Notes under the pieces: model-generated
Told to the model about the DNA's origin: nothing
The model's input: only the letters and a program-made list of their open reading frames with translations
Databases searched by the model: none
Origin: Polytrichum commune
Taxonomy: Eukaryota; Streptophyta; Polytrichopsida; Polytrichales; Polytrichaceae
Length of the DNA stretch: 64,000 bases
Assembly (NCBI GenBank): GCA_950295325.1
Contig: OX485806.1
Coordinates: forward strand, 24,676,001-24,740,000
Direction: 5' to 3'
Position numbers and translations under genes: made by a program
Shown here: positions 15,214 through 37,619 of the stretch, piece by piece
Numbering within the stretch: the stretch's first letter is position 1
How the letters are laid out: the number at the start of each line of letters is the position of its first letter

Positions 15214-15480
15214 GTTAACTATAGTTATTTCGGCAGTTCTTGATTATTCATTTTAAAAATTTCGAGTGATAAATGAGTAGCTTCAATCCTTGACCCGCAT
15301 TTGAGAAGAAGGTGCCCAAAATCCAAGAAAGGTTTGGTATAGTGAACAACCATGGATTGGCATGAGCAAAGTGGACAACTACAACTATAGTCTTTCATAG
15401 TAAAGGACAGAGACTCACGGTTTTACCGTTTTCTTGTTCACTAATATGTTGATATCGTTCAACCAACCACTTCAAGTTTC
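14890..15480. repeat. Dispersed repeat, inverted copy at 53.75-54.2 kb
   Basis: This 0.6-kb region matches the reverse complement of 53745-54210 closely. Shared blocks include GCATCAACTTCTTCG, CCACTTTGCGTTCACACTTG, a CT microsatellite at 15167-15212, AGTTAACTATAGTTATTTCGGC, GACCCGCATTTGAGAAGAA and GGACAGAGACTCACGGTTTTACC. No terminal repeats or coding domain were identified, so the class is unknown. Confidence 0.75.
15167..15212 (+). repeat. (CT)n microsatellite
   Basis: An uninterrupted CT dinucleotide tract of about 22 units lies inside the dispersed repeat. The inverted copy at about 54.03 kb carries a matching but rearranged CT/AG tract. Confidence 0.9.
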
Positions 15481-16174: not shown

Positions 16175-16541
16175 CATAACATTATTCAACCACGTGGGCC
16201 AATTCCATTGACCTTCGAATAAAGAAACTATATTATGGGTTCCGTAAACAAAGTAGTGATATTCGGTTACCATTCATATATTCATGCTGACACTTGGAAA
16301 TTTGGATGGAGTTATATTTATGTCATTCACAAACAACATTCTTCATCTCAACACTAAAAATACTATTCATAACAACACTATTCATTGAAATACCGGCACT
16401 ATTCATATTATTCATTATTCATACCGACTTTGGTTTCTTCTTATTATCGAAGTTTCTTCCCATGAAGGTAAGACTGTGGACGCCCTTGTTAAATGCTACA
16501 TATAGAAACTAAACTCAACCATACGGTTGAATAATCTTATG
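16175..16541. mobile_element. MITE of the CATAACATTATTCA family, 367 bp
   Basis: The left end CATAACATTATTCAACCACG matches the reverse complement of the right end, CATAAGATTATTCAACCGTA. The dinucleotide TA flanks both ends and may be the target site. The interior resembles, in inverted orientation, the copy at 54768-55168 (shared block TTTCTTCCCATGAAGGTAAGA). A shorter relative lies at 18347-18491. No protein is encoded. Confidence 0.7.
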
Positions 16542-17722: not shown

Positions 17723-18346
17723 ATGTTAAAATCCCTTTCATCTATGTTATGTGTATCTAAAATACATCCATTTTCATTTGGGAACTACTTGGGAACTTCA
17801 TGAGAATTAGGGTTGCTAGTGTAAAATGGACATGGTTAGGGTTAAGGGTGGCCTCCTGCTTAGTATGACGCTAAGTGTCATGCATCGTTGTTGTCTAGTT
17901 TCTTATTAGAGAACTCTTCATATTTTGGTGTCAATGAAATTATTAGTTTCCAAAAGTTAGTAGGGAATTTAGATAAGGTGACAGTTGCTAACTTGGGTAG
18001 GCAACACCAGAGATCTTTGGACTCGTATTTCCAGAGTTCTTGAGAATATTTGTATTTGTTTGGAGTTATAAGTTATTTTTTCATACCATCTATATTGCTT
18101 AAACTCGTTGTGTATATATATAGTTTAAGCTCATATTACTTATGTTTTCGTATTCCCTCAACAATACGACAACTTTACGCCATTTGTCATGTTAATGAGA
18201 AGATGACACCTCGATAATACATTTTTTTTTGTGTTTCCCAATCGTGTCAAACTAAAGAGGGAGAAAAATATTGTTGGCGCATGCTTGGTTTAAGGGAGGG
18301 CATGACCGTGTGGTGTAGGTTGTTGGGCCTATAATTTGTTGAAAAC

Positions 18347-18491
18347 ACAACATTATTCAGATTCATAACAATGTTCTATGGGACTAACACTATACTATAG
18401 TGTTCTTATTATTCATCATGAATGTAGAGAATATTCCATAGAATATTATCAGTCCCACATAACACTTTTATGGATATGAATAATGTTATGA
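18347..18491. mobile_element. Short MITE of the CATAACATTATTCA family, 145 bp
   Basis: The left end CACAACATTATTCAGATTCATA and the right end (reverse complement CATAACATTATTCATATCCATA) form terminal inverted repeats. An inner inverted pair (TATGGGACT with AGTCCCACATA) suggests a near-complete palindrome. It lies just outside the large 17-kb element. Confidence 0.65.
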
Positions 18492-18801
18492 AGCTCCAAA
18501 TCGCATTCATGCCAGTACCTTGTACGGGCATTATTTTTCTTTATGAAGCTCCAAAGTCAAAGCCACATGTTTTTTAGATGTGGACCAATGACCAAACTTC
18601 TCCCCATATTTGATATTTCGGCCAATGGAATCTTACCCTTATCCTTTGGACCCTACCTTTGGCAACTTAATCAAAATTAATTAGCACAATGGAATCAAGC
18701 AAGAGTGCACATACAAAAGGGTTTAAGTAAGGTTAGGTTATGACAATCTTCAACAATATAAGAACTCCTCTCTTGGTGTGGTTTCATCAAATTTTATGGT
18801 A

Positions 18802-18829
18802 AACACTATATTCGTTAATTGGAGACTTT
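18802..18829 (+). repeat. Left terminal inverted repeat of the 17-kb element
   Basis: It starts AACACTATATTCGTTA and matches the reverse complement of 35880-35907 at 27 of 28 positions (A versus T at position 17). It is immediately followed by a small hairpin, GAGACTTT-GG-AAAGTCTC, which the right end does not copy exactly. The bases before it are GGTA. Confidence 0.85.
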
Positions 18830-19248
18830 GGAAAGTCTCAAAATAAATTGGACCCGTAGTTTCGGATGTGAATATTGTGAACGTAGGGAACATGGGGAAC
18901 AATGGCAACATAATGTTCGAAAGATCCATATGTGATGAATATATATGTTTCTAAATATAGTAATTATTTGGGGGATAATCAAAACTACGCCAACACAATA
19001 TTCCAATGTCACAAATTCACAATTATTTTGCATTTTTGATTTTGTATTGAACAAAATTAACGAATCTATAAATAGCCATCTGATTTTATATCTAGGGACT
19101 CTTGGATGCGTATCCCAAACATAACATCTTAGCCAATTGTGGGTGAATTGAACGGCACATCCCAAACGCAACAATATTAAAATAATTTGACAGTGTGTAT
19201 AAGAAATTGCAAATTAGCATCTGCAATATAATTATATAGTTTGGACTC

Positions 19249-19319
19249 CACATCCGTAAACACAAACATATAAAAAACATTTGATAGCGCATGTGAAGTT
19301 GGATTCTACATCCGTAAAT
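19249..19319 (+). repeat. Two half-sites of the element palindrome
   Basis: CATCCGTAAA occurs at 19251-19260 and within 19308-19319, each preceded by TTGGA.T.C(T)A. They correspond to one arm of the palindrome found throughout the element, spaced about 59 bp apart, in the left margin beyond the end of the minus-strand gene. Confidence 0.45.
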
Positions 19320-19458
19320 CAATACAATCATGATATATAATTGTAATCTATAAAATTGCTATAAAATGTGTCTAATATAGTATTCGACCCCAATGTCATA
19401 TATTTCATGAAAAACCAAGACACATTTCAAATAATTGTGGTCCAACCCTACGTCAATA

Positions 19459-22400
19459 TCATTCTCCATCTTCATCTTCAGCTTCATTTCCATTCTCGAC
19501 ATCGTTTTCTGCAGCAGCAATACGTGCCAAGTTGTCTTTGGCAAAATCTATATGTTTTTGGGGGATGGTCATTGTCTCTGATTTGGAACCTTTGCGTGGT
19601 TTCCAAGCACAAAATATGGTATCTGTGTTTATCCATATTGGTTTGTATGCTGAGTCCATTGTCCATTTGAAACCTTTTTTGGTGTCCCACCCTAAATATG
19701 TGCGGAGCACATTTTGATCTTTGGTGCTAGGACGGCAATATTCCACCTCAATTTGATGAAAATTTGGGCTAGTTGGAACAAAATTTGGTGATGACAATGT
19801 TTTTACCAACCAAATCGGTTTAAGGTGCTCCTCATCTCCAGGACGTACGAGGATCATATACCCTTCGTAGCAATCAACAGCCACACGAAATGATGGAGCC
19901 GGACGATTACGAGCTGGGCCAACATAATGGTCGTCCGCTGCGAACTCTTCACGGATGTCCCCATTGTCGAAGAACATGGCCTCAGATTCCACGATTGTCA
20001 CTCGGCTTTGTGGCCAAAAACCTTGTGTCAAACATGAATGTGTTTCGACATCGGGTGCTAGCAATGCTGAGCGAATGCGATCCCAGTACGTAATCAATGG
20101 TTCGTGGGTATCCCGAACACGCCTTGTGATGTCTTCCTCGCACAATTCTTTCCAATATTGGATGAATCCGGATATACCTTTGATGATTTCTGGTCCATTC
20201 CTCATGGGGTTGGGTTTGCAAGGCTTCGGCTCCCCATCAGGTAGCATACATTTGCCCTCTTCGTTTTGGCGTCATACGAGTATCCCTTCCTCTGGACCCC
20301 AATCCGGGGAAGTGCACAAAACTTTGAATTGCATGGCCGGCAAACCATCATCACGCATATAGAATCGGAATTGTTGAGCCTTGGTATGGCCCACTAAACG
20401 GTCACCTCCCTTAAGAATGAATGGTTCGATAAACGCTTTGAAATCGGACACTTCTTCAATCAAATGCGGGATGACTGGCACATTATCCAAATCCATGTAT
20501 GATTTCATGAGAAGAGGAATCGTCGGAAGATCCTCCTCGTGCAACTTCATACTCCAACGTCCAAATGAAGCGTCAATGTCATCATGCGTGTGGCCAACCA
20601 TCAAAAAAGACACAAACACTTCTTTGAAAATGCCCTTGGCTACGAGCAATGACCAAAAACAAAACACGTATCGACATTTGTTGTCTTTGGCACAATTGTC
20701 CAGTTGCACATGTAGAGTTGGAGGCAAAGGTTTAGCAAGAACGGTTTGTTCAAGCGGTTCTTGCAGTGACGATAGACATACTTCTTTCCCCTCTAGCACA
20801 GCCTCATAAATCGGTGTTGTTCCAAATCCAACAAAAAGAGCGCGAGAGGATGATGTTGGCGGACTCTCAAGATCTCGTAGAAGTTTTGCAAAAGACCCCA
20901 CGGTATGATTGGCGTCGCCTGGATAGAAATCCAAGCCATAATGTGCATACTTGACGTCCACATGGCCATGTGCGATCATACCTGAATTAAGACATACAAA
21001 TGAGAAGTACATTCCAATATCTTTTATGATAAGGAAATTCAATTTTTCCGCAAGCAGGCCAAGAAAATGAACAAACACTTACGGATGTACATCCGTAACT
21101 CTTAACGATGAGTATGTGGGTTCGCAAAAAAAATGTGAAAACCAACGAACCTGTGACAGATATTGGGAGCTTGAAATATCCATCTGTAGCCTTTATTTTC
21201 CGTGCATAACAAGGGCACGCAGTCTTCGCATGGTCCATTTTGTCATGAATGATTGTCAAAACCTCATTCGGCCTCATTATCGATAATGCGCAATTCTTGT
21301 AGTAGTCTTGACGGTGTGCCTCTTGGTTGTTGACATACTCAATGTATTTCCGTTGATGTCTATTGTGCGACTCAGTCCCTATGGGATGTGCATCTCGAAG
21401 GCCCTTGTATTTTTCACAAGCAGAACACCTGGCAAACTTATCCCCAGGCCTCTTCGTAATGTACTCTGCAAATTGTTGATTCTTGATCACACTCAATTTT
21501 GACAACGAAATCGGCCCACATCCAGCCTTTTCGCCAACCTTATTAACATCCACAATTATGTTCTTCCATTTTGTCCCTGTAGGCAAAACCATCTGGACAA
21601 CCTTTTCCCCCGACGGCAGAGTCCGTGTCTTGTGTGGCATCGCATCTGCTAATGGCATAATGATGGTTGATAGTGTTGCAGCCGCTTGGAGTGTTGCCTC
21701 CCTGGGCTTCTTTGTACCAGAGTTGCCATGGAACCGAGAACGCCGTCCTTGCAGCGAGTAGTTCCGGAACCTATAAAAATCTGCCTTTGAAACTGCATGT
21801 ATAATGTACCATGCCGTGCAGCATACCTCTATATTTTCCAAGGTCACAACCTTACGACCTTCGGCATCAAAGTGCATGTTGCGATGGACTTCAAGTTTCT
21901 TTGCAGATCGCATCCGAAAGTCCGCAAGCCACATCTCTTGTCTCAAAGATTTGATTTTGTCACGGGGAAATAGTTGGCAACACATTTTTGCACAACAATC
22001 CTTTGTTGCTATGGACCTAATAGATGTGTCTCCCAATGTTAGATCTCGACGACGTTGCGTGGGTTCACGAGGCACGCGAACGGAATCATATTTACGCCGA
22101 CCTTGTCTAGGACGCATTGTGGTGAACAAAGTCTTTTGTATTTCCTCAAAATGACGTGCATGATTCCACAAGCTGATACCATCGTGAAGAACACTTCGCA
22201 ACGGCCATCGACAAAGAGAGAATCTCCAACCATGAGGTACTTCCAATGGATGTAAGGAGTTCAAAATGCACACCCCAACATCTTCCTCCCCAAGGGGATT
22301 TGCATCAATACAGTCCATAGGATTTGAGTTCCTACAAACACCATTGGCCACGGGGACGCCGTATCCATTGACTATGACAACATCAAGATCAATCCATTGT

Positions 22401-22555
22401 TCCCGCGAATAACCCTCACATGTTGGTATGAAATCATCCTCTGCATTGGCGACACCAATTGTAGTTTCATGTTCCATGACACCTTCAAATTCGCTAGCAT
22501 AGCTTGACGCTTCCGAAGAGAACTCGAATGCACTATCTCGGACGTTGGAATCCAT
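19459..22555 (-). CDS. DUF7869-like transposase-type protein (one in-frame TGA)
   Basis: Two exons, 22555-21151 and 20981-19459, join in phase 1 across a 169-bp intron to give about 975 codons. The start has a good plant context (GGCCATGGA). A TGA at 20274-20272 (codon about 705) interrupts the frame; open reading continues on both sides in the same frame, and the change fits CGA to TGA at a CpG. Parts in order: acidic N terminus; Arg-rich segment; Cys-rich KDCCAKMCCQLF (about 185-195); a CxxC motif in ARCSACEKYK; HDKMDHAKT (Asp 438/441); LDNCAKDNK (Asp 563); GHTHDDIDASFG (Asp 602-605); a C-terminal domain rich in aromatic residues ending in an acidic tail. The LDN-NK and GHTHxDID motifs match my memory of the DUF7869 group found in repetitive genes of plants and oomycetes. 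The three Asp clusters look like an RNase H-type D-D-D triad. Transposase function is inferred from these motifs and from its place inside a TIR element. Confidence 0.72.
20272..20274 (-). pseudogene. In-frame TGA interrupting the DUF7869-like gene
   Basis: The codons before it read GPEEGILV and after it RQNEEGKCMLPDGEPKP, both in the same frame and with no splice signals nearby. A C-to-T change at a CpG (CGA to TGA) is the simplest cause. It truncates the protein after the putative catalytic core but before the last 270 residues, so loss of function is likely but not certain. Confidence 0.7.
21079..21098. repeat. Palindrome variant in the intron of the DUF7869-like gene
   Basis: A perfect 20-bp palindrome, TTACGGATGT plus its reverse complement. 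It shares the outer TTACGGA arms of the element palindrome but has a GTAC centre in place of the usual GCGC. It lies inside the gene's only inferred coding intron (20982-21150). Confidence 0.8.
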
Positions 22556-22696
22556 GGCCACTACAAGTGACCCACATGAAGAGTATGTCAAAATATCCCA
22601 TTCAATAAATATCATGGATAGTCCTAACGCTTATTGTCAATGAAACACAATATCAACAATAGTGGATTTCATGGCCTGGAAACAAAGACACATTGG

Positions 22697-22924
22697 TATA
22701 CGAACGCGCGTACGTATATCTCCATGTAACAACATTATCAGTGCAAGCACGCGCATACATATGTCTTTATTTGTTCATAGTCGGCGGAAAGGTCCAGACA
22801 ACAAAAACATGACAGTTTTATGGGCGCGCACCCGTAAATCTCTTTGTGGTCAAAGAGGTCAATATCATGCACAAATGTTTTCGCAAACTATACAACATAG
22901 GTATACGGACGTGCGTCCGCAAAC
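22697..22924. repeat. Degenerate palindromes in the leader of the DUF7869-like gene
   Basis: Diverged copies of the palindrome occur near 22697-22718 (TACGAACGCGCGTACGTA), 22817-22838 (TATGGGCGCGCACCCGTA) and 22901-22924 (TACGGACGTGCGTCCG), with a weaker one at about 22745. They lie upstream of the minus-strand start codon. A possible acceptor (CACTTGTAG) directly before the start suggests they sit in a 5-prime leader intron. Confidence 0.65.
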
Positions 22925-23151
22925 ATCCGAATGTCAAAAGTCAGTGTTGTGCAAGACACACAGAGGTTTAGGAAACCAAGATGTACAAGTGCCAGGTTCC
23001 TACTGTGTATTATGAATGTCAAAATATTATACTATGACACATAGGGTGATGTAAGCTTAGGGTTTAGGGATCTTATACCTCCATTGATCGTACAGTCTCA
23101 ATGTAATATTCTACATGGCACATAGTGAAAAGTATGAAACCAAAGGTTTGC

Positions 23152-23179
23152 AGGTTTACGGACGCGCGTCCGTAAACCT
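23152..23179. repeat. Perfect 28-bp palindrome
   Basis: Arms AGGTTTACGGACGC followed by the exact reverse complement. It could extrude a cruciform or, if transcribed, form a 14-bp hairpin. A decayed relative lies at 23213-23235. Confidence 0.9.
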
Positions 23180-23336
23180 CACTGTACCTCATTACTAGCA
23201 CAAATAGGTTTAGGTTACTGGACGTGAGTCAGAAAATTTTTATGACAATACAGTCTCGTTAGTATACTATACATGGCAAGTGGTCATGATGTCAGCTCAG
23301 GTGCAATACCGAACAATGGAACAAAAAAGTGCAAAA

Positions 23337-23647
23337 GTTTATGGACGCGCGTCCGTAAACCTCAATGTAGATGAAATAGGTCAAGTATAATTCTCACTGC
23401 AATAGATATCCAATCAAGCAAGAGGTTAAAGGTTTACGGACGCGCGTCCGTAAACCTCAATGTAAATGAAATAACTCAAGTATAATTCTCACAGAAATAC
23501 ATATCCAATCAAGCAAGAGGTTTAAGGTTTACGGACGCGCGTCCGTAAACCTCAATGTACATGAAATAGCTCAAGTGCAATTCTCACAGAAATAGATATC
23601 CAACCAAGCAAGAGGTTTAAGGTTTACGGACGCACGTCCGTAAACCT
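23337..23647. repeat. Array of four palindromes with exact 95-bp period
   Basis: Palindromes at 23337-23360, 23430-23457, 23525-23552 and 23620-23647 have centres spaced 95 bp apart each time. The spacer is also repeated (CAATGTA.ATGAAATA, CAAGTATAATTCTCAC, TATCCAATCAAGCAAGAGG), so the palindrome is part of a 95-bp tandem unit. The first has one mismatch (TTATGG) and the last has CGCACG at the centre. The array lies 0.8-1.1 kb upstream of the DUF7869-like gene. Confidence 0.9.
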
Positions 23648-23649
23648 CC

Positions 23650-26119
23650 GTGATTTGCGGCGCCATAATAGGACCATTTCACCAGGAACGATACTTGCCA
23701 TAAACAAAAATCAATCACTATAAGGATCCAGACAATGCAATCCACATAAAAATTGGCTCCACTAATGGGTTTATGGCTTGGAATTTAGTGTTTAGGGTAT
23801 AAAAGGTCCATTGCAATAGGATTTGTACCTGCACGAAATAAACATCAAGAACACTACAAGGGTCCAAGCAGCGCAACCCACATCTGAGATGCAAAAAGAG
23901 TCCCTTGGTGGAGGGGTGTCCCCTTAAGTACTGATCGTTTCCCTTGGATCCGTTTTCCAACATAGGATACTAGCCACCATCTACGTCCTATAAATAAAAA
24001 CCTAACATTACTACATTCCGTGTGCCAGCCTTACAATGGAATGTGTATTCATAGTGGACAACATGCATAGACGATGAGTCCACATAATGACAAAGCAAAA
24101 GGCATCTACGTATTTATGGTGGACAACAAAGAAAATAGGCTAATAATATATGAGCATTGAACATTGTTGAGGGGTGGTTTATAATATTGAAGTACCTAAT
24201 ATTGAGAGGTCATTGTAGAACTAGGAGACAGAAAATTATAGTGTCGTGTGAAACATCAACCACAACAACAACAATAGTACATGGAGTATAAAAATACGTG
24301 TCATTCAAAATTAAACTAGCATCTATTTTATTGTTTTGCATACGATGTAATGATATTCACTCCAATATCATGTTATCTCCTCTCATCTAGCATTTAAACT
24401 AGTAATTACATTTGCCACCACCCTACCATCCAACCCGTTTAATTTACCCACTTTTACACACCTATACATAATTATATTAATACGTACACAAACTTTAAGC
24501 GCCTAGATGCCATGAAAATAGCACATCTATTGTCATAGGCACTATGGGTTGCTTTAAAATCAATATTCTCAATTTCCTCTCTTAACCTTAGGGCCCCCTT
24601 CAATACATCAACATTTATTTCAAAAAAAATAATACTAGCATTCTTAATGTACTATACGTGAGACAAAAAACAATTTTTAGTACCCCATGTACATTATCTA
24701 CAATATTGACTCAAACAATAGTAGTTGTTGTTCTAAGTAACATTATGAGCCCAACAAAGCATAATGGAGAGAAGGGGAGGGTAGGGTATCCAAATATTAT
24801 AAAGGCAAGCAATTTTAAGTTGGTGAAAGAAGGGGGATACTCTCATTAGTTCATACGTGGTACCCTAAACCCTAAACCCTAAACACTATACCCTATACCC
24901 TATACCCTATAACCACCCACCCCTGAACAAACACGACGACATACGGTACGCATGGTTAACTGAATAACTCCCAATACATGTGTAGCCTTAAGTGGAAGTA
25001 ATTCAAAACTATATGACTACCTTTAAATTTTGTAAAATAAAACCATAAACATTTCAAATGTGAAGCAAATTTAGGGGTAACCTTACCTTTCATTTTTTTA
25101 AATCTTTCTTTGGCTTTAAACCATTTGCTTTAAACATATACTTTTGATGAAAGGTTTTGAAGATCGTATATTGGTATTCTATAATCGAGTCCTAAACACA
25201 ACTCACCACCGAAAGAAAACTCCAAATATAAACAAGTTTGCTACTACTTATAAGCGATAATACAAGCTGAGGCCTATGTGTGGAAGGATTGGATGGATCC
25301 GAAAGGTTGTTTAATGTACAAGAGGGATGTACATTCAACACATACCCATGCATTTTGTTTTAATACAAGCTTAGACCTATGTGTGGAGGGATTGAATTAA
25401 TCCGTAATGTTGTTTAAGGTATTACAAGCATATGAATTCTCCCCATATCTCGATGTTTCGGTTTTGTTAATTGCGTTTCACAACTTATTGCGATAATTGA
25501 GGGATTCACAAGTATTTATTGGCAAAGTTTCATGAGAATTTGTGGCCAATTGGTATATTGCCCCAATTGCATTTGAATCCCACCTTTGAGAAGAAAAAGA
25601 ATTCTTATACTGAAGTTAATCAACAAGACATCCTTTTATTGAATATTATTATTATTCTCGAAATATAGAGTCCCCTCCATAGCTCGGGGGGTGCACTGTA
25701 CTAAACATATACGAGTTATACGTGAGTGCACAGGAGGGGTATTGATTTGGACCTTGCCGTATTGCATATACATATGGTATACATGTTATAATTTATAGTT
25801 ACGTACATATATGGAAGGCCTTTAAAAAGTATACAATAATTGTACTTGTATGGTATTGTTACTATACTATATATCATAAGTGTTCATATTGGATAAGTTT
25901 TCATAAGGTTTGGTTTGTTGGGAGAGTTTATAGGATGCGGAGGAAGTTTGGTAATCGTTGGGTGGAGTATAGGGATCCATTTGACTTGATGGACCGTCCA
26001 TCAAACGTGGAGATTGGTTTATGTTGGTATCAAAAGGGGCTAACAACAAGTGGACATATGATCTTATTGATCATTCCATGGTAGACTTAGAGACAATAAT
26101 TGCATTTGTATATTTATGT
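23650..26119. other. Central spacer of the element, no gene seen
   Basis: AT-rich DNA between the two divergent units. It contains a short telomere-like tract at 24863-24884 and no supported gene. Promoters for both units should lie between here and 27.2 kb, but no specific box can be assigned. Confidence 0.45.
24863..24912. repeat. Short telomere-like tract CCCTAAA
   Basis: Three copies of CCCTAAA, the Arabidopsis-type telomere unit on the C strand, are followed by several CCCTATA variants. It is too short and degenerate to be a telomere. Confidence 0.75.
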
Positions 26120-26127
26120 TAATGACT

Positions 26128-26443
26128 CTCGGGGGGGGGGGGGGCAGTCATTGGTTGGAGTAGCAATATACGTGCAAACAAATGATAGGGTATTTTAAAA
26201 ACATGGGGGCAAAAAATTATAAATGGACTTAAGAGTAATATAGGGTATCAAAAATGGCACTGGACATCTTTAAAGTAGTATAGGGTATGGAATAATAGGT
26301 AATTTGGAATTATAAGTAATGCAAGCCATTTTTCTATTAACCCAAAGTAGAAATTTATATAATGATAGCATGTGAAAAAAATAAGAGAATTAAAAGTAAT
26401 ACTCCCCTATATCCTTATTTTTTTAACACACTGCCCCCCCGAG
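26128..26443. mobile_element. Nested MITE with oligo-G ends and 8-bp duplication
   Basis: The left end CTC-(G)n-CAGT and the right end ACTG-(C)n-GAG are inverted repeats. Both sides are flanked by TAATGACT (26120-26127 and 26444-26451), an 8-bp target duplication as in hAT elements. The interior is AT-rich and non-coding. It inserted into the 17-kb element after that element was formed. Confidence 0.8.
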
Positions 26444-26451
26444 TAATGACT

Positions 26452-27100
26452 AATATATATGAATGGATGTTTTTTTGTGTATACATATTGTCGCTTGTAT
26501 ATTTATTGTTGCAATTGTATGTGTATTACTTCATTTCACAAAAAATCACTTGTATATATTAGGGGGTTTTTAGAGTATGCAGTGAACGCACATGATTCTA
26601 GGTTTTAATGAAAGGTGCTCCCCCACTCTCCATAGAGGCCACACTAGAAATTGTAGTTAGTTTCTCTCATTGTTTGGAGTTCCAAAATGATATTATTATT
26701 ATTATTGATGTCATTTAATTGTTGACAATGACATAATAATTTACTCAACCTCACACCCTAATATAATTTCCTAAAATAATGAATACTTTCTAGAGCTCGT
26801 ATGAATATTTCACTCATTATCAAAAGTGAAGAGAAGAGGCAACGAGATGGCTCATTTTATATTTAGAGTGACATTTAGTGTGACTTTTAACTTGCCTTAG
26901 CATAAACATAAGATGTTATTATGACATAATATGATAATAAAATCACCAAACTAAGTATAAATTAAACCCCTATTTCAATACCAAATATAGACCAGTAGGG
27001 TGATGCCACGTAAGGGTATAGGCCGGCGATTGGGCGCGACGTTTGGGGTAGGGACACGTGGAGGCACGCCATTGTTTTAGGGTTCCAAGTACTCCAACAC
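26452..27100. other. Non-coding spacer before the plus-strand unit
   Basis: AT-rich, no gene seen. It ends at a GC shift near 27000-27060 that leads into the CT-rich leader of the plus-strand unit. Confidence 0.4.
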
Positions 27101-28332
27101 CCTTTCGCCCTCGCTCTTCGTGCTTTTCCTTCCTTCTCTATCATCTCTTCCTTCCTTTCCTTCTACTGTTGCTCTTGCTTCTCTTGCTTTAGGGTTATAG
27201 GGTTTCAAAGTACACCAGCTCCCTTTTGCCCTCCTCTTCGTGTTTTTGCTTCCTTCTCTTGCAGCTCTTGTTTCTCTTGTTTCTCTTGCTCATCTGCTCT
27301 TGCTTCTCTTGCTCATTTGCTCATCTTCTCTTGCTCATCTGCTCTTGCTCATCTTCTCTTGCTCATCTACTCTTCTTCTCTTGCTCATCTTCTCTTGCTC
27401 ATCTTCTCATCTTCTCTTGCTCATCTGCTCATCTTCTTTTGCTTCTTTTGCTTCTCTTCACTTTCTTCTCTTGTTTCTCTTGCTTCTTACCCTTATCTTC
27501 ACTTTCTTCTCTCTCTTCTCTTGCTTCCCTTGCTGGTCTTGCTTCTCTTTCCTCACAATGCAAAACTCATTCTTATTGGTCAATTGCTGACGCGCGTCAG
27601 AGCTAGAGTAAGTTCTCCTTGTTTGCTGCTCATTTGCTTATTAGCTCATTAGCTCATTAGTAAGTTTTGCTTGCTGCTTGCTTGCTGCTCATTAGATCAT
27701 TAGGATGCTCATTGTTGCTTGCTACTGCTCATTAGGTTGTTTTCAGTTGTTGATCTCAGTTGTTGCAAGGGTAATTAGTGTTTCAGATGTTGCTCATTAG
27801 GGTTTCAGTTGTAGCTTCACCATGTAGTTCATTATATTTTTTGCATACAAATCAATAGTTTCCTTTCACTTGTGTTGCATGAATCTGATTTATGAGCAAC
27901 TTTTTTTAAGTAGTTCTCAATGTTGAATCATGCATGTGCACATTGAATTACTAGAGGTTTCTGACCTCAATTTTATTGTTCATTTGCAGTTGGTATTAGC
28001 TGCAGCAAGAGCAGCTACTTGTGGTTTAGGAGCAAACACTCTAGAAAGGTAAGTTTTTTAGAACATTGCAATTGCATTTTGTATGATTGCAATTTTGGAT
28101 TGTTGTGGTTTAGGGCTTAAGGTTAGCATGAGAGAATGTGAGATTCCAGTTTCAAGGAATTCTGAATTTGTTTAGTACTTTGTCTATGGCTACATTCTAA
28201 GAATCATTTAGTTATGGACATGTCAGTGTTCTGAAAGTGCCTTATGTTGTCAATCTGCAGTGCAGTGTTTGCTATTGCAGTGAAGTAAGATTGCATTCTT
28301 ATTTGGAGGGCAAAACCATATTGGACGACAAG
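27065..28332 (+). promoter_or_regulatory. Inferred spliced 5-prime leader of the DGQH-protein gene
   Basis: The region 27075-27240 contains a tandem duplicate (TTTAGGGTT.....CCTCTTCGTG blocks), followed by a long CT-rich tract built on CTTGCTCATCT repeats (27240-27540). Splice sites suggest untranslated exons: donor AGAGCTAGA/GTAAGT at 27607/27608; an exon at 27990-28048 (acceptor TTTGCAG, donor GAAAG/GTAAGT); an exon at 28261-28332 (acceptor TCTGCAG, donor CAAG/GTAAAG). The ATG at 29107 directly follows TTTGCAG, so it begins a further exon. The inference rests on splice motifs alone. Confidence 0.5.
27587..27600. repeat. Short palindrome CTGACGCGCGTCAG
   Basis: A perfect 14-bp palindrome with the same ACGCGCGT core as the element family but different outer arms. 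It sits a few bases before the first inferred leader donor site, so it would be in exon 1 RNA. Confidence 0.7.
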
Positions 28333-28407
28333 GTAAAGTCCCGAAAAACACGGAGCATTAATGAAAACATTGGAATACGCAAACATTACAATAGCCTTTA
28401 TAATCCT

Positions 28408-28709
28408 CAAAGTTTACGGACGCGCGCCCGTAAACTTTGTGGATCTTTGTGTAGGTGAGAGACAAGCCTCTCAAACAACATATTACGCAAACGAAGCCAA
28501 ATATTGTAATATTAGGCATATTAAAATAGCCTTTATAATACTCAAAGTTTACGGACGCGCGTCCGTAAACTTTGTGGATCTTCGTGTAGGTGAGAAACAA
28601 GACTCTCAAACCGCATATTACGCAAACGAAGCCAAATATTGTAATATTAGGCATATTAAAATAGCCTTTATAATACTCAAAGTTTACGGACGCGCGTCCG
28701 TAAACTTTG
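28408..28709. repeat. Array of three palindromes with exact 135-bp period
   Basis: Palindromes with arms CAAAGTTTACGGACGC lie at 28408-28439, 28543-28574 and 28678-28709, with centres exactly 135 bp apart. The 32-bp inverted structure is perfect in the second and third and has one change in the first. The spacers are repeated too (GGATCTTTGTGTAGGTGAGA, GCATATTAAAATAGCC). The array lies in the inferred leader intron just upstream of the DGQH-protein gene, mirroring the 95-bp array of the other gene. Confidence 0.9.
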
Positions 28710-28734
28710 TGGATCTTTGTGTAGGTGAGAAACA

Positions 28735-28850
28735 AGACTCTCAAAAATATATGTAGGTGAGAAACAAGACTCTCAAAAATATATGTAGGTGAGAAACAAG
28801 ACTCTCAAAAAAATATATGTAGGTGTGAAACAAGACTCTCAAAAAAAAAA
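28735..28850 (+). repeat. Short tandem repeats, unit about 33 bp
   Basis: Four copies of a unit built on GTAGGTGAGAAACAAGACTC plus an A/T run follow the 135-bp array. The unit is a fragment of that array's spacer, so the array seems to have decayed or slipped at its end. Confidence 0.8.
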
Positions 28851-28906
28851 ATATTAACCGTAACTTGAATACATTGATATTTACCACCATACTATCTTTG
28901 CGAAGT

Positions 28907-28926
28907 TTACGGACGCGCGTCCGTAA
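28907..28926. repeat. Perfect 20-bp palindrome copy
   Basis: TTACGGACGC plus reverse complement, in the inferred leader intron of the DGQH-protein gene. Confidence 0.85.
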
Positions 28927-29027
28927 CTTATAGAGATATTTGAGTATATAATATACGCGTTATGCGTATTTGGAAGAAATGTATCTTTTCATTTGGATCC
29001 AAAAATGTAATTGAGACAATTTGGAAA

Positions 29028-29053
29028 ACTTTACGAACGCGCGTTCGTAAAGT
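29028..29053. repeat. Perfect 26-bp palindrome with compensated arms
   Basis: Arms ACTTTACGAACGC plus the exact reverse complement. Relative to the main family, GGAC became GAAC and the opposite arm changed to match (GTTC), so pairing is preserved. Confidence 0.85.
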
Positions 29054-29106
29054 ATGATCTATATCTTTTGCCAATAATTCTAACTTATCTATCTTATCAT
29101 TTGCAG

Positions 29107-32100
29107 ATGGCATCTAAAAAGAGACATGCAATTGAGATGTTCGCAGAAGCTCTTATTCCTCCGCTACCAGAAGCCATCAAAGACATAAGTCCCAACGACC
29201 ATTACAAGCCACAAGATGAAATTGTGGATAATTGGACAGTATTGGTAGAAAATGACGAGAAAGAAATATTTGTGCTTAGATTTGCATATCAAATGAAGAC
29301 GGACATAGATGAAGCTGAGAAGTGGATAAAGCTTAAATCGTGGACAGTAGAGTGTGCAGTGGCACAAGGGGATTATGTAGTAATAGACCTTGAGAAGAAA
29401 GAAGATCGGGTCACTTTCATTTTGCACGAATCCTACCACCCCTTCAACAAAAATGAGTGTGAGAATGCTAGTACAGATGCGGCTTGCTTCAATCTCCAGA
29501 CGGAGTTCCAAGACTATGCATGCAATGCACCTTGGACGGGTAAGCGGCTTAGACGACTTTTGAACAATGTAACAAGAGTAAATGGAGCCTTGCTAGAGGC
29601 CAGAAAGGGGAAAGAGAAGAAAAAACAAGTCGTTCCTGAACGACCCAAGCGTGTGCCTAAACCAGTGCCGGAATCCTCAAGGCCCTCGCAGAGTGGTGCA
29701 TCAAGAGGGAGCAGACAGGCGAGTAAACGCTCTCACTCGCAGATGGACTCTGGACTAACAGAGGGTCCGGATGTCAGCTCTACACTGACTGTCGCTCCAC
29801 TCCTCAAAAAGGGTCAACGCCCTGACGCCGAACTCTCAACAAAAATATTCCAAGAGTTCGATGAGAAGACGAAGGGATGCTGGCCCCTTGGCAAGTATTT
29901 TACTTTCGAAGTAGACGTCTACAAATGCCACAAGGGCACCGAAAGTATGAATACCAGAGCAAAAGCAGAAAGCGGGGTATGGTGGCAAATGAACAACATC
30001 ATGAACAACCCCAAGTTTGACAGGCAGACCATTTGTGTGACACCAAAGGATCCTATCGTTGAAGTCAACGAAAACAATTGGCCGATTCTCAAGAATGGAG
30101 AGTTCTACATTGTCGACGGCCAACATAGTGTAATGGCTGCAAAAGCTTTCCTTGAAGACGACGAGTGGAAAAGCCCATTAAAGGAGACAATCCGATATTG
30201 AAAGGCATTCGTCGTGCATTCCAAGGACTCGAACCAACTCATAGCAATATCTGCCTTCATGAACCAGGGGAATAAAGTGAGGCAGTTCGAGGCTTTATGG
30301 GCAGCCAACATCGTGGCTGGGAGGATCTTGTGGGTGGAGCACGAATGTCCCCCAAAAGAAAGAGATAATGCTGTCGTGAAGAACCCAAAATGGCAGGTAT
30401 GTTACTCAAATAGATTTACGGACGTGCGTCCGTAAATGTGGCCCTTCTCCTCCCACTGATTCAAATATTTGAATTTAATCTGTATTGAATTCAATGTTCT
30501 GATTTCTTGCAATTCGCGTCTCTTGCAGACATTCAGCAATGCCATATTGACAAAGTTCTCGAGTATAGACATGAAGACAAGCGGCATGAAAACAGTGCAT
30601 GAATTAAAAGGCGAACTCAAGCTCATCACTGCAACAGAAGAGACGTGGTCAATATGGTTGCGACTTTTCAATGCCCACAACAACGGCGACCTTGTCAATC
30701 CAGATACGGAGAACACCTACAAGAGCGACTCAAAAGTTAAGGTACCACCAATCCTGCGAGAGTTCTTTCGTCCCCTCCAAGGATTGATGGACTCGGAGCT
30801 GTACAGGGCAGCAGAACACATTCTTCTAGAAACTCCTAGAAGAACTCTGCCCTATCCCAAAATCTTTCTGAAGCGGCTGAAGCACATGAAGCCATCCACG
30901 TACCACATTAAGGAATGGTGCGATTACAGAAAGAAGAAGACCATGGCTGTAAGGGAGATTAGCAAATTGCTACCCACCCACAACCTCATTAATAGTGATG
31001 GTGAGATCGTGTGGGAGAATTGGAGGAAGCTGAAGGGTGAATACCACATCAATGGCGTCTCAATGCGAGCTTTGATAAGAGGGGCATCATCCTTCCTTGC
31101 CCAACGATCCAGAAGGAACGAAAAGAAGGGATCCATCGACGAGAGGGAGGCAGGGTTGTACGTTCACTTTCTCGATAGGAAAAAGAACGCGAAATTTGGA
31201 GGGTTTGCAAGATTCTGCACGGTCGCAAAGGGCATGAAGTTCGGCGCATGGGATACCCATGCTTCAAGAGCCTCTGTGAGAGATGACCCCAGGGGTTGCC
31301 CTTTCGCCATTTTTTATTTTCGTGCAATTCCCGGAGCATGGAAGCAAGACGTTGCGGGAGCACCCTTCTACGAGCCCTTCTTAAAAGCCTTCAAGAGTTA
31401 TCGCTCGCCTGCCCTCTTCGAGCCTCATGTGTGGTTATGGATTGTAGAGCAAGAGAGGTCCACATCCATTGTCCATCTGTACACATCAACGATGGACCTC
31501 AAATACGATATGTACCACAGCACCTACATCCCAGCGAAGACAGAAGGGATCACTTTCATTCAAGAGGCAAGGGGGGTGAAGCAAGTGGGAGTTGTGCAGT
31601 TTTATTTCTTAACACGCAAGTCTTCCCCAACTGGGCGATTGCCCATTAAACCACACGAGGTGTTCAGGAAAGTCTATTCGTTGCCGCCACCACATCCCAA
31701 GGAGCTTGTTGAGGAGACAATGCATGCAATCTATCCGGCGTTCGAGCTCCGGATGGACTTTTATATAGGGGTCTTGAAGGCTTTAACTGTCATGAGTGAG
31801 ATAGTTTACAACGTCTTCGGAGGCACGAAGTTTATGTATGCAGCACTGGTGAGTATTTGTTTGTCTTTCAACCCACCTATCTTTTGCATAGTTATTTTAC
31901 GGACGCGCGTCCGTAAAAACCAAGTATCAGGTGCATGTGAATTTTACGACCGTGCGTCCGTAAAATTGTCCAACTTTTGAGTGGTGGTTTTACGGACGTG
32001 CGTCCGTATAACGTGTTGACATCTAGCCTCATTTATATGCAATCACCACTATTGTTCTTATCTAATTTTCTTGTTATGGTCCAGATGCTTGGCTTGCAGG

Positions 32101-33515
32101 TGAATTTTTTTGTGCAGGATTCCGACTACGATGACGCCCATACTCACAGGGTAATGGCCTCCAAAATGGATATCCAGGACATCATGGACGTCCTTACACC
32201 CCATCCTGTTGTGCCTCTTTCTTCTAGAGAAGAGGCAATGCCCGGAATGGAGACAGACCCTGAAGAGGACCAAGATCTCAGTTCCCCAAGAGCGCAACCC
32301 TCCACACATGAGCCTTTACACGGCCTTGTTCGCGACCCAATTAATCCAAGTGCTTTCCTGCTGGGAACAGACGACACGGATGCGCAGGAGGCACGCGTGA
32401 ACTTCACTCCGATAAGGGTCCCTCATACCCCTGTTCTCTCACCTTTTGGGACTCCCACCTCTCGAGTTGGATTTCCCTCAACTGCGGGTCCATCTCGTGC
32501 TCCAGGAGTTATGGCCGAGAAGGATGTGGACCTTGCGGCAGAAGGCGGATGCACCGCTTCATCTGGAGGGGGATCTCAACATTCAGATCTACCCCCTATG
32601 GAGGGGAGGGATGTGCTGGAGTTGATATTGAGGCCTGATATCTCTCTATATCGTGAGAGTCGACGAAAGAGGAACAAGACGCCATACAACGAATACCCTG
32701 AAGGCGCGGTCTTGGAGCTCTCCGATGAAGACGAGGATGAGATTAGGATTCACAATGCCATCTCTGCCTTGCCTACGGAACCTGGCAAGGTGAAGAAAGA
32801 GCCGATGTCAGTGTCCGAATTGGACGAGAAGATGGAGAGGCGAATGAAGGAAGAGCTTGACCAACGGCTTCGAGAAGCTAACGAGGAGCACGCCAAAAAG
32901 ATGGCCGCCATCCAAGCTGAGATGGAGCAAGCTAGGTTGGAGTCTGCTCGAAGCCACGCCGATCTCATGGCCCAAAATCAACAGTTCTTGGCCCAAAGTC
33001 AACAATTTATGAGCCTGATGCAGAGCTTGCAGGCAAGACCCCCTGTAGTCTATACAGCTCCCGATGCCGTCATGTCTATGCCCCCCACTCTCATGCGGCC
33101 TCCATCTAGTAGCCATGCAGTGTATATACCCGAGCATGCTTATCCAGCCCCCGCGTTGATTGTCCCGCCCTCTCCCCTTGTTGTCGCCACTCCAGAGGAG
33201 CCCTCCTCTCATCCTACAGGAGTGGAGGAGATACCGGCACGTGACATGGCGGGTGCCGCCGAGACAGATGTCAATGAAGGCAATGCCCCCATCGGCGATG
33301 AAGATGTACATATGCGGGGCAGCCAAGACTCCACAGATGAGGATCAGCCTTACGTGGATACTCAAGGGTTGCAAGCGGCTGGAGACACCTTGTTGGTGGT
33401 CGAAGATCTGGACAATTTTGCGGGCGCGCGTCCGGAGCCTGTGCCCATGACAAGGCCAGGTGAGGGAGGCACTGCTGGCGCGGACCTCGCCCCTGAAGAG
33501 GTAATCAACCTTTGA
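29107..33515 (+). CDS. DGQH-motif (ParB/DGQHR-like) and coiled-coil protein, one in-frame TGA
   Basis: Exons 29107-30396, 30529-31848 and 32085-33515 join in phase 0, giving about 1347 codons. The start is the first ATG after an acceptor (TTTGCAG). TGA at 30199-30201 (codon 365) lies between ETIRY and KAFVVHSKD; TGG to TGA is the simplest cause. Exon 1: acidic N-terminal domain (1-170), a Lys/Arg/Ser-rich linker, then FYIVDGQHSVMAAKAF (Asp near residue 337). This motif matches the DGQHR/ParB-Srx fold, whose members include ParB-like nucleotide hydrolases and DNA-binding proteins. Exon 2: a Trp/Arg-rich domain I do not recognise. Exon 3: Pro/Ser/Asp-rich region, a strongly charged coiled coil (about 32815-33035), then a Pro-rich tail. 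Two introns carry element palindromes. Exon 3 may instead splice at 33500/33501 into the HAD exon at 33841. The function is not established; a DNA-binding or partner role is inferred. Confidence 0.68.
30199..30201 (+). pseudogene. In-frame TGA interrupting the DGQH-protein gene
   Basis: Open reading in the same frame continues for 65 codons on the 3-prime side to the exon end, and for 364 codons on the 5-prime side. It falls inside the DGQH-type domain, 25-30 residues after DGQHS, so a truncated product would probably misfold. No splice sites allow simple skipping. Confidence 0.7.
30414..30437. repeat. Palindrome in intron 1 of the DGQH-protein gene
   Basis: ATTTACGGACGT/GCGTCCGTAAAT, one mismatch at the centre. 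It lies 18 bp after the donor at 30397, inside a 132-bp intron. Confidence 0.85.
31895..32012. repeat. Three palindromes in intron 2 of the DGQH-protein gene
   Basis: Copies at 31895-31918 (perfect 24 bp), 31940-31967 (two mismatches) and 31987-32012 (mismatched near the centre and one arm) are spaced 47 and 46 bp apart. All lie in the 236-bp intron 31849-32084. The spacing here is far shorter than in the 95-bp and 135-bp arrays. Confidence 0.85.
33417..33436. repeat. Palindrome-like core inside an exon
   Basis: TTGCGGGCGCGCGTCCGG retains the GGCGCGCGTCC core of the family but lies in coding sequence (residues DNFAGARPEP). The outer arms do not pair. It may be a decayed insertion absorbed into the exon, or chance in GC-rich codons. 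Confidence 0.4.
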
Positions 33516-33529
33516 GCATGCCTCCCACG

Positions 33530-33549
33530 TTACGGACGCGCGTCCAAAA
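33530..33549. repeat. Half-decayed palindrome after the DGQH-protein stop
   Basis: TTACGGACGCGCGTCC is intact on the left; the right arm has changed to AAAA. It falls in the segment (33501-33840) that would be an intron if the HAD exon is fused to the DGQH-protein gene. Confidence 0.75.
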
Positions 33550-33840
33550 CTTCCTTGTCTGCCTCCTTCGTGGCGTGTGTATATTATCGAGTTCAATCCT
33601 CGACTTCGCCCGGCGGGTGGATACAATTTTGTTAGCATAGATTCCATTAACTTCAATAGATATTTTTTGCGACAATGTATATTATTCACCAAATGTGTAT
33701 CACCAATTACATTAATACCAATTTTTCAACTGGATGGTTCGGATTATTTTTGGCCTTATAATTTGTGTTGAGTTTATCCATGCTTGTCAATTGGTTTTCT
33801 TGAGTAGTACCATTTACCTAGATAGAATGTTCCATCACAG

Positions 33841-34608
33841 GGTCCGTCCGAGATATGTCGCAACCCCGCGGGAAAACCAAGCGCGCCCATGATGAAACCG
33901 TTCATAATATTTGACCTCAATGGGGTGCTTTGTCAATCCAAACATATCTCGAATACTGCGTCCAAGGGGCCCTTCCGTAGTCCACAAGACATGGATTACG
34001 GCGGACATTTCGATACTCTCATAAATAAGAAGGTTGTACGTGCCCGCCCCGGTTTGAGGAGCTTCCTTCGTGAGGTCCTTGGCTTCGCCCATGTCATCAT
34101 CTGGAGCTCTATGCTCATGGACAACACGAAGGCCATCGTCGGTTTCCTTTTCCGAGAACTCGCAATGCCATGCTTGCTTCTCGATCAAGAACACTGCGAT
34201 GACCTCTATGACCGTAGTGGCAATATTGTACCCAAGGTCGGAGGAGGTCGTGGGCCTCAATTCTTAAAGGTCCTGAGGAAGAACCTCTGGGTGGGCGTCC
34301 CTATGTTGGAGGGGGTTCCCCACGGTTGTTGGCCCACCCCGGATAAGACACTCCTCATTGACGACAGCCCGGCAAAGAGTATTCTCAATCCCCCGGGCAA
34401 TTGCATATTCCCGGATCCTTGGGAAAGCGATAGAAATGACAACTTTCTAGAGAGTGAACTAGGACCCTACATTAGGAGGCTTGCCTATCACCCCGGAAGT
34501 GTCCCGGATTTTGTGCTCTCCAACCCAATTGGCAATAGGCCTCTAGGCCCACAAGATGAGGAATTTAGGAGATTGTACGGCTACGCTAGACTCAATAAAT
34601 TAATATGA
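33841..34608 (+). CDS. FCP1/SCP-like HAD-family phosphatase domain
   Basis: The ORF starts at ATG 33889 and gives 239 residues; the same frame is open back to an acceptor-like CATCACAG ending at 33840. HAD motif I is FDLNGVL (Asp 9), with Asn where most active members have the second Asp. Motif II is VIIWSSM, a Lys-rich middle segment follows, and motif IV is LLIDDSPAKS (Asp 158/159). FCP1/SCP-type members dephosphorylate Ser of the RNA polymerase II tail; a DxN form may be weak or may have other substrates. The frame is intact and ends LNKLI. If the donor at 33500/33501 is used, this becomes the C-terminal domain of the DGQH protein (phase 0 on both sides). Otherwise it is a separate short gene in the same orientation. 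I regard both readings as open. Confidence 0.72.
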   Translation, partial: GPSEICRNPAGKPSAPMMKPFIIFDLNGVLCQSKHISNTASKGPFRSPQDMDYGGHFDTLINKKVVRARPGLRSFLREVLGFAHVIIWSSMLMDNTKAIVGFLFRELAMPCLLLDQEHCDDLYDRSGNIVPKVGGGRGPQFLKVLRKNLWVGVPMLEGVPHGCWPTPDKTLLIDDSPAKSILNPPGNCIFPDPWESDRNDNFLESELGPYIRRLAYHPGSVPDFVLSNPIGNRPLGPQDEEFRRLYGYARLNKLI

Positions 34609-34700
34609 AAACTTTGATGATTTTGGGTTTGTACTTGGACTCTCCATGTAAATATCTAACATTTCTCCCCTTATCTTTGTAATGTATTTTTGTGTCTTAG

Positions 34701-35597
34701 TTGCCTCACCAAGCACCCAAAAGTGTCGTCAATGGCATGTCTGCATCTCAGGCAGACACCGGCTCCCCTTCCCTTGGTATGAGCGACGTTGCAATGCCTT
34801 CACTATTCCAATATTTGGCCGTCGATGCTGCCTCTGCTGTTGATTACTCCAAAGACTCCGGGTTTGAAGACGGAGTCGTGGATAGCCCTCCTGCAAAGGT
34901 TGCAAAACTCAATTACTCTCCAAGTCCATCTCCATCTCCCCTCCGCAGTGAGAAGCACGTCCGTAACCCACGGTCGACCAGACGCCTTTGCATGGATGAA
35001 CCCCAAATTGATGTCCCGGCGTTTGCGAACGTCCCTCTCGGGCTTGTATCTACACCCGTCGATGTCCCAAAAGCTCTAACCAGCGCCCCAAAGGCGAAGG
35101 TGCCCAACTATTGGCATTCTCAAGTTTTTCCTTGATGATTTCCGTGTATTAGTGCATTTCAACTTCTTGGGTTTTTCGGACTTCCATCCGTAACTTGTAA
35201 CCACTTATACTAACCCACTTCATTATATATATTTATGGTCATTGTTCAGACCCCAATGTACACGAATGTGGGCCGGGCATCATCGACTTCGTCATTGGAT
35301 AGGCGAACACTGAAGACAGCTTCTTGCGAGTCTGATCGTTGTTTGGCCCTACGGAAGAGTGCAAGACGTTCGGTTTCCCAAACGCATTCGTATTCCACTT
35401 ATTCGGAAGGGGGTCGGCAAATATGGGCAAATGGCGCATATTCGGGGTCAACAAATAAACAAGGTTACAGCCGCGGACCCGAGATCTTTAGAGCCATGGA
35501 GGCCATGAAAGCAAAGGAACGTGAAACGGCCGTAAATGCTAATAATAGTATTGCAAAAGCAAAAGTAGTGAGTCGTAATCATGATCCGAACGTATAG
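34701..35597 (+). CDS. Ser/Pro-rich protein or C-terminal exons of the preceding unit
   Basis: Two exons, 34701-35099 and 35250-35597, join in phase 0 (AKVPN side removed; K then TPMYTNVGRASS), giving about 248 residues. The first exon follows the acceptor GTGTCTTAG; its first in-frame ATG is at 34737. It contains a Ser/Pro repeat SPSPSPSP, a Val/Pro/Ala-rich segment and a charged C-terminal helix (EIFRAMEAMKAKERETA). No domain is recognised. The 150-bp intron holds a decayed palindrome at 35171-35194. The gap from the HAD stop (34608) to this exon is only 92 bp, too short for a promoter and terminator, so these are more likely alternative or downstream exons of the same transcript. A poly(A)-like AATAAA follows at 35694. 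Confidence 0.5.
35171..35194. repeat. Decayed palindrome in the last intron of the plus-strand unit
   Basis: GTTTTTCGGACTTCCATCCGTAAC keeps both CGGA and TCCG arms but has lost the GCGC centre. It lies inside the inferred intron 35100-35249. Confidence 0.65.
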
Positions 35598-35693
35598 GCT
35601 ATATTAACATACATGTAGTTGTGGAATTATGTTTCTAGGACTTTCGCCTAATATTGGATATTCCACTTGCATTTTGTACTTCAACCCCTATTC

Positions 35694-35699
35694 AATAAA
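35694..35699 (+). terminator. Putative poly(A) signal AATAAA
   Basis: AATAAA lies 97 bp after the last stop codon of the plus-strand unit and 180 bp before the right TIR. It is the only standard signal in this margin. Plant signals are degenerate, so the assignment is tentative. Confidence 0.5.
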
Positions 35700-35879
35700 T
35701 ATGATATTGATTTTCCATATGCAAATGTTTTCATATATCCCATTTTCTTATTGTTAATGTGTAGTTCCATGCATTTGAGTCTCTTATTTGTTTCCAAAAT
35801 TGGGAACATAGCATATTTTTAGTGTTTTTATTCCTATAAATGTGAAAGCCACGTCCTTAAATAGTCTCAAAATTAACAA

Positions 35880-35907
35880 AAAGTCTCCAAATAACGAATA
35901 TAGTGTT
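35880..35907 (-). repeat. Right terminal inverted repeat of the 17-kb element
   Basis: Reverse complement of the left TIR at 18802-18829 with one mismatch. It is immediately followed by GGTA, the putative 4-bp target duplication. Confidence 0.85.
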
Positions 35908-37619
35908 GGTATCTAAGGATTAGCCATGGCCTCAACACATACTTTTTAAGTATTACCAACCTTAAGTTGAAGATCCTTGGCTCAAGGAAGTTACGCTCTA
36001 AACTCCGTAGTATCACACCTGTTGCAATCAGAGTGCACAAGATATTATGGAGTTCCGTATTGTTAACATGGATGTGTGATCCATAGTGTGATGTTGTGTA
36101 GCATGTGACACTATGGAATAACACAAAGTGCAACATTTTAATGATGTGGTGTAGTCCACTCCACTTGACCTTCCCGGGTGATGTGGCATATGCATGCACT
36201 AACATTCAACAAGTAGCATAACAAGAATAAGAATAAGAATAAGAATAAAAAGGTGACACTCCACATATTGACACATGGCGCAATGCAAGGGTGTGAGTTG
36301 ACTTCATTGGTGGTTTGCATTAATGACAAAGTTCATGATATAAGGAAGAGAAATGGGACAATAAGGAGTGAGATTTGAACTACGAACATCCGTTCCCTAG
36401 GGTTTCGAGATATTAGAGAGTGAGTGACATTATGGAGGTTGGTATTGCGGAGTTTAGGGTGCACTTCCCAGATGTATTGGTCCACTTGAAATAGAACAAA
36501 ATGTAGGCCTTGTCACATACCGATTAAAATCACCAACTCCAATAAATATTCATAACGTTTTCCCATGTATCATTATTGAAGCCTTATGCGGCTAGTGGCA
36601 ATGCAAAGCCTCCGCTTCCACCAATCTTAGATGAAGCCGAAAGGATATCTTTCAAGTGAAACAAGTACTTTAGCATGAAAATAGAGGCAATTCTTTCTCA
36701 TCAATTGGTCGGGTTATAGGTTGGAGGAAAACTTGTGAAGCCCCAAAAGTACTTGAACTCCTAGTATCCAAGGAATATAGGGATAGTGTAGCACAGTCTA
36801 CTGAAGAGTTTTAATGCACATATGTTGTGCTAGATAGCAATTCCAATACGAAACCGTAACTGAAATGATGAAATTTTGAGATAGTTCGCCAATCTCCTTG
36901 ATATGAAGTTTTTTACATTCCTTTGAGATAAGGTATTGCTTCGTCAATTAAGTAGATACACTCAAAACCGGGAGTAGTGCAACGTATTGATATTTGTTGT
37001 TTTATTTAAACGCGTTAGTCAAGATAGATAGAAGCTTCAGACCTCTTTTTAAGGCCGGTGTGAATAAAATGTATGTTCGTAATGTGAATGACCTAGTGCC
37101 ATGCGTTAGTCAACACCAAGTAACTATAAGAAATGATGCATAGAAGTTCATGGTTTTAGTCACTTGGAGGCTTGGATCTTCTTACAAATGAAAACATTTG
37201 GTTAAATTGCACCAACATTGAACATAGACTGAATGGTTGGTGTTGTTCAACCAATTGGAGTAGATTGATTGTTGATTGCCCATATATGAGCCTGTCTTTC
37301 CTTTTTAAGATCTTGTCGATTTGTTCAATATATTGGACTCTCTATTAAACGTCTCTTTATGCTTGAGGATCAATCTTCTATAAATACAACGTACAAGAAG
37401 ACATCATGGTTAATTGTTGTGGAAAAATTGCCTCAAATACTTTTACTTTGACAAATTTATTATGATAGATATGCTATTATGCAATGATAAGTATGGAATT
37501 ACCAAGACATAATAACTATTATGTACTTATCGTTGTATGACTTTAACCATGACATGGATTGAAATGAAATTGTTTTCTTAAGTCCTGGAAGCCAAAAGGC
37601 TAATGGGACTAAAAGTAGA
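35908..37619. other. Gene-free interval
   Basis: No coding region or clear repeat seen. A short GAATAA microsatellite lies at about 36220-36248. Confidence 0.4.

Follow-up and report, generated by a model that had tools for sequence, protein, structure and literature searches.

Giant KDZ, EnSpm and Sola-1 elements have been described in Ectocarpus, where their transposases are often pseudogenised (PMC12477816). According to that description, Sola1-1_Ec32 is a 21.5-kb Sola1 element in which the gene opposite the transposase encodes a protein of 1104 aa with ParB-like and DNA methyltransferase parts, and the authors suggest that ParB-like proteins of this kind attach to the element that encodes them and modify it epigenetically (PMC12477816). 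Sola2 elements are described as having a 4-bp target-site duplication (TSD) (PMC3627910). Here we report a multigene element at positions 18802-35907 of a 64,000-nucleotide stretch of the Polytrichum commune genome (assembly GCA_950295325.1, contig OX485806.1, 24,676,001 to 24,740,000, forward strand), referred to below as the window. We estimate a probability of roughly 85% that this element is a giant cut-and-paste DNA transposon with a DUF7869 transposase (gene T), a regulator that acts through dyad-symmetric sites (gene R1) and an accessory protein (gene R2).

The element is bounded by 28-bp terminal inverted repeats (TIRs) at 18802-18829 (plus strand) and 35880-35907 (minus strand). These pair at 27 of 28 positions, just as the original prediction from the sequence had it, and the GGTA that it placed directly outside both ends is present at 18798-18801 and, as read in the sequence, at 35908-35911. 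The left TIR starts with AACACTA, contains CACTATA and is identical in the eight other full copies printed; the right TIR was placed by its pairing with the left and by comparison of copies. Among the inverted pairs listed for the window (at least 22 bp, at most one mismatch), this is the only one with the same 4-mer on both flanks.

Are there other copies bounded by the same ends? End searches of the genome (408 Mb, 64 contigs) gave at first look 828 left-end and 686 right-end candidates, and the 40 left-end and 40 right-end matches scored among them were all 98-100% identical to the ends in the window, which bears out the expectation that further copies with these TIRs would be found in the same genome. 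Of these 40 left ends, 11 belong to the window or to 20-kb stretches read around ten copies, 13 to copies read at the flanks, and 16 lie outside the sample. Eight of the ten 20-kb stretches hold both ends, 16.4-18.8 kb apart and each with a perfect 4-bp TSD; in the other two (c2 and c3) the right end is absent from the stretch read. The 13 flank-read copies, picked for end matches that pair up, have perfect TSDs in 10/10 and 3/3 cases. Thus the TSD is perfect in all 22 elements with both ends read (the window copy and 21 others). By their coordinates, two of the 22 are 7.4 and 32.7 kb long and the remainder 16.4-19.3 kb. Hand counts give 18 different TSD sequences among the 22, with no fixed motif, and A or T at 69 of 88 bases. 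The general hallmarks of DDE/D TIR transposons, namely TIRs and a TSD of fixed length at many copies, are therefore found in 22 of 22 elements. Alignments to other copies end at the element borders, some running up to about 12 bp further; the break of identity inside the borders that would have spoken against a single unit is not seen. The duplications show that the element transposes or did so in the past.

The original prediction described two divergent multi-exon genes between the ends. Both are present, and its gene list was incomplete by three further open reading frames (ORFs) at the right end. The gene models were built from the comparison of copies, without RNA data. The left gene, T, lies on the minus strand and has two exons and 975 codons. 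Exon 1 (21151-22555, start codon inferred) carries near its 3' end the first conserved Asp, in IIHDKMDH; the intron (20982-21150), which could be aligned across copies, contains a palindrome at 21077-21100; exon 2 (19459-20981) encodes the DUF7869 domain (Pfam, E 2.2e-42) and the C-terminus. DUF7869 is present in all 40 T relatives scanned, which were picked from at least 120, and is the only Pfam family above cut-off in T and its relatives. Three candidate catalytic Asp residues are conserved in 28/30, 39/40 and 39/40 alignment rows, and a low-confidence model places them at two strand ends and in the helix that follows a third strand. Judged by this Asp pattern, by the position of the gene and by the lack of any other candidate, the DUF7869 protein is probably the transposase. 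Relatives of T were not found in the viral and prokaryotic collections (viral_contigs, genome_contigs) by a search that reaches only relatives sharing short peptide patterns, and megablast of exon 2 found no match in plasmids. The name DUF7869 was not found in the literature searched.

The right gene, R1, is on the plus strand and diverges from T, with three exons, 1346 codons and a ParB-like DGQHS motif. Exon 1 (29107-30396), outlined by comparison with relatives, includes this motif and belongs to no known family; it has 23 relatives in other assemblies at 58-93% identity. It is followed by intron 1 (30397-30528, aligned between copies), with a palindrome at 30414-30437, and, as delimited by copy comparison, by exon 2 (30529-31848), intron 2 (31849-32084), with palindromes at 31897, 31944 and 31990, and exon 3 (32085-33515), the start of which was moved from 32118 to 32085. 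R1 matches no Pfam family above cut-off, and relatives of it were not found in viral_contigs with the same kind of peptide-pattern search. The string VYNVFGGTKFMYAALMLGLQV resembles by eye the pattern of methyltransferase motif I. An N4/N6 methyltransferase domain was not matched by profiles, nor was a methyltransferase match found in PDB, and no DPPY motif was seen by eye in exon 2; a methyltransferase origin of R1 can be taken as a lead only. The structural model of R1 (pLDDT 34.8) is unusable.

Three ORFs follow on the plus strand. R2 (33889-34608) encodes a protein like the NIF/FCP-type HAD phosphatases (PF03031, E 3.2e-13; TIGR02251, 2.6e-7, under the curated cut-off), with the motif DLNGV, which we take to stand where DxDxT/V is usual. 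The R2 protein has at least 150 scored genomic matches, some of them partial, and in 140 of 150 the matched stretch has no stop. Thirty open relatives among these 150, at 63-64% identity, possibly belong to a sister transposon family. The literature searched gave no paper in which a transposon with terminal inverted repeats is mentioned together with NLI interacting factor. The small ORFs R3 (34734-35135) and R4 (35247-35597) have no stop in the matched stretch in nine of nine copies; R4 of copy c6 was aligned over residues 1-112 of 116, with three gaps.

The sequence of all five genes is recognisable in each of the eight other full copies, although in six of these at least one gene is interrupted by a stop or a broken frame, R2 of c6 being split. 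In the other two, c1 and c10, no stop or frame break was seen in any matched exon. In the window copy, T and R1 are each interrupted by one premature TGA. At the place of the first (20272-20274) all eight other full copies have Trp; at the place of the second (30199-30201) seven of the eight have Trp and c7 was unmatched by the search pattern. The idea of one intact mobile unit thus holds for the structure, with its 22 perfect TSDs and its copies, and fails for the coding capacity of this particular copy.

Are the genes maintained by selection? Ratios of nonsynonymous to synonymous divergence (dN/dS) were computed against c1, c10 and c7, with R1 exon 3 taken from 32118, and against c5 for five exons; c9 and c6 were left out. 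Against the first three copies, T has a dN/dS of 0.17-0.25, R1 has 0.08-0.10 in exons 1-2 and 0.33-0.39 in exon 3, and R2 has 0.15-0.20; the values for R3 (0.45-0.51) and R4 (0.49-0.61) rest on few changes. These sequence comparisons show that between subfamilies T, R1 and R2 have evolved under purifying selection, and make the element a case of giant-transposon accessory genes under such selection. The five exons compared with c5, a copy 98% identical, have values of 0.67-1.99, which is what copies that decay once inserted should show. Synonymous divergence in R1 exons 1-2 is 0.85-1.04, four to five times that in T and R2 (0.17-0.23), and identity between copies changes in steps along the element; therefore the subfamilies look like mosaics with an exchanged R1 module. 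The central noncoding region at 25800-28800 has window identities of about 54-70% to c1 or c7, with genes that align on both sides.

A palindrome family is the other distinctive feature. With up to three mismatches, TTACGGACGCGCGTCCGTAA matches 16 sites in the window, all within the element (mean in shuffles 0.00), and all 29 window occurrences of the half-site CRTCCGTAA are within it as well (0.40 expected). Up to four mismatches give 20 palindromes, in agreement with the count of about 20 first proposed. The further claim that the palindromes end at the same borders as the TIRs proved wrong: they span 21077-33549 and stop more than 2 kb inside each end. They lie upstream of T (22697-23647, including a 95-bp-period array at 23333-23648), upstream of R1 (28408-29055, including a 135-bp-period array at 28385-28752), in the introns and, lastly, at 33530-33549, just 3' of the R1 stop. 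Nine copies together hold 196 palindromes with up to four mismatches (20-29 per copy, 68 exact) in a common layout. On the T side there is one in the intron and a cluster upstream; on the R1 side there is a cluster upstream, one in intron 1, two or three in intron 2, a weaker match inside coding exon 3 near its end and one after the stop; none of the nine copies has any beyond the start of R2. In 9/9 copies the T intron and R1 intron 1 contain a palindrome, sometimes degenerate, as does R1 intron 2 in 8/8 aligned (c8 excluded), and these intron palindromes persist while the remaining intron sequence diverges between copies. Array spacing likewise varies by subfamily and the dyad persists. In 10 of the 23 R1 relatives from other assemblies, the reading frame extends into the intron far enough to cover the same palindrome; the other 13 stop earlier or have a variant.

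Genome-wide, the core palindrome has 1147 sites and its reversed control none. The first 50 sites, all on contig C1, include 41 within five elements with listed left ends, two of these elements with both ends read, and nine in two further clusters. The palindrome was not found in viral_contigs, was found in three stretches of one Parcubacteria bin, and Rfam gave no match in the window. Among 61 distinct dyad sequences, 101 changes are one-sided, 13 are compensated and eight are two-sided without pairing; the excess of one-sided changes is easier to reconcile with a site bound by protein than with a hairpin in RNA. The sequence itself shows a candidate DNA site for the accessory protein.

How might these parts work together? 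The DUF7869 protein would be a DDD/E transposase with an RNase H-like fold; it would bind the element ends and cut mostly AT-rich target sites with a stagger of 4 bp. Less certainly, R1 may act as a DNA-binding regulator supplied by the element, with the TTTACGGACG/CGTCCGTAAA dyads upstream of T and R1 and within their introns as its recognition sites, through which the element would control or mark its two principal transcription units. R2, with its likeness to phosphatases, would be a conserved accessory protein, perhaps one that acts on host transcription. The window copy no longer encodes full-length T or R1 and could be moved only in trans.

Several observations weigh against this account. 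The joined flanks of the window copy matched only the filled site, and an empty site is not demonstrable because these flanks are unique in the single genome searched. For DUF7869 proteins, sequence searches found neither a solved structure nor another Pfam family, and Foldseek gave no meaningful match for the T model (mean pLDDT 50.6); the conserved Asp residues are triad-like, and the model is too weak to place an acidic triad on an RNase H fold, for which there was no fold match. The likeness of R1 to ParB consists of the short motif and sub-threshold matches: to DUF6551 (14 of 23 members, E 0.012 at best) and to phrog_1033 in one of two R1 relatives scanned (E 0.028). Phage matches of R1 have E values of 3-10, with three of nine records annotated ParB-like, and plasmid matches have E values of 7-9, none of them ParB. 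The protein that binds the palindromes could instead be the transposase or a host factor.

In CACTA elements, subterminal TNPA sites offer an analogue, and the palindromes here might be binding sites of the transposase itself, with other roles for R1 and R2. Copies do have CRTCCGTAA half-sites at distances of 267-508 bp from the left end, and another, at 35185, is about 0.7 kb away from the right end. However, the full palindromes stay over 2 kb away from either end, gather upstream of T and R1 or within these genes, and are absent 3' of the R2 start, and we regard this explanation as possible rather than probable. A slightly less likely proposal keeps R1 as the binder and likens the element to a ParB/parS system that marks itself: R1, possibly derived from a methyltransferase, would read the roughly 20 dyads, and the NIF/FCP-type R2 would adjust transcription of the unit.

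Could R2, R3 and R4 be passengers captured from the host, with no role for the element? Large elements often carry captured genes, and the dN/dS of R3 and R4 (0.45-0.61) points the same way. The open frames of nearly all scored R2 matches and the low dN/dS of R2 between subfamilies speak against it, and we consider it unlikely. It is more unlikely still that the palindromes function at the RNA level, forming hairpins in introns that tune how T and R1 transcripts are spliced or processed. Their regular presence in the T intron and in both R1 introns would suit such a role, but the arrays upstream of the two genes hold more of them, and compensated changes are far outnumbered by one-sided ones. 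The idea that ordinary host genes happen to be enclosed by a fortuitous inverted repeat is refuted by the other copies with their perfect duplications.

Other features of the window can be noted briefly. A short array of ACCCTAA, the plant-type telomere unit, lies mid-element at 24861-24914 and suggests a plant host. Outside the element, a 53-nt imperfect foldback (79% paired) lies just beyond the left border at 18346-18490, and inverted copies of another dispersed repeat flank the element at 15056-16473 and 53800-55168. A long foldback that includes 34-bp tandem repeats occupies 737-1860, and exon-like ORFs at 47073-47702 resemble by eye a host ARL8-type small GTPase.

How does the element compare with known giant transposons? 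As a large multigene eukaryotic DNA element with TIRs it resembles Maverick/Polinton elements, which have genes for a protein-primed DNA polymerase, integrase and capsid; no polymerase, integrase or capsid family was found among the nine ORFs scanned, which rules this group out. EnSpm/CACTA elements have a 3-bp TSD, a TIR beginning with CACTA and a Transposase_21-type transposase. The present element differs in its 4-bp TSD at 22 of 22 elements, its AACACTA start and T, where DUF7869 alone is above cut-off and a CACTA transposase domain is lacking, and membership of this group is ruled out. Sola1 elements have a TSD of 4 bp, as is found here. DUF7869 is a Pfam family without an assigned function, for which the element supplies TIRs, a 4-bp TSD and a gene context, so that its putative role as a transposase is made testable.

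Among described elements, the giant En/Spm (CACTA) elements of the red alga Chondrus are similar in size and ORF number (16-20 kb, 4-5 ORFs; PMC6431247), and the TIR here has CACTATA within it. Sola2 elements with captured Fanzor genes, which are of DDE type, likewise combine 4-bp AT-rich TSDs with accessory genes; their accessory gene is a different one, and their TIRs, at 12-21 bp as reported, are shorter (PMC3627910). The partner gene of Sola1-1_Ec32 differs from R1 in its predicted DNA methyltransferase domain, which no profile finds in R1, and the description of that element, as far as it was available, mentions neither a NIF-type gene nor intron palindromes (PMC12477816). Nevertheless, both are giant DNA transposons with a large accessory gene, ParB-like by description in Ectocarpus, on the strand opposite the transposase, and in anatomy, by its description, Sola1-1_Ec32 is the closest published match to the element of Polytrichum commune (PMC12477816).

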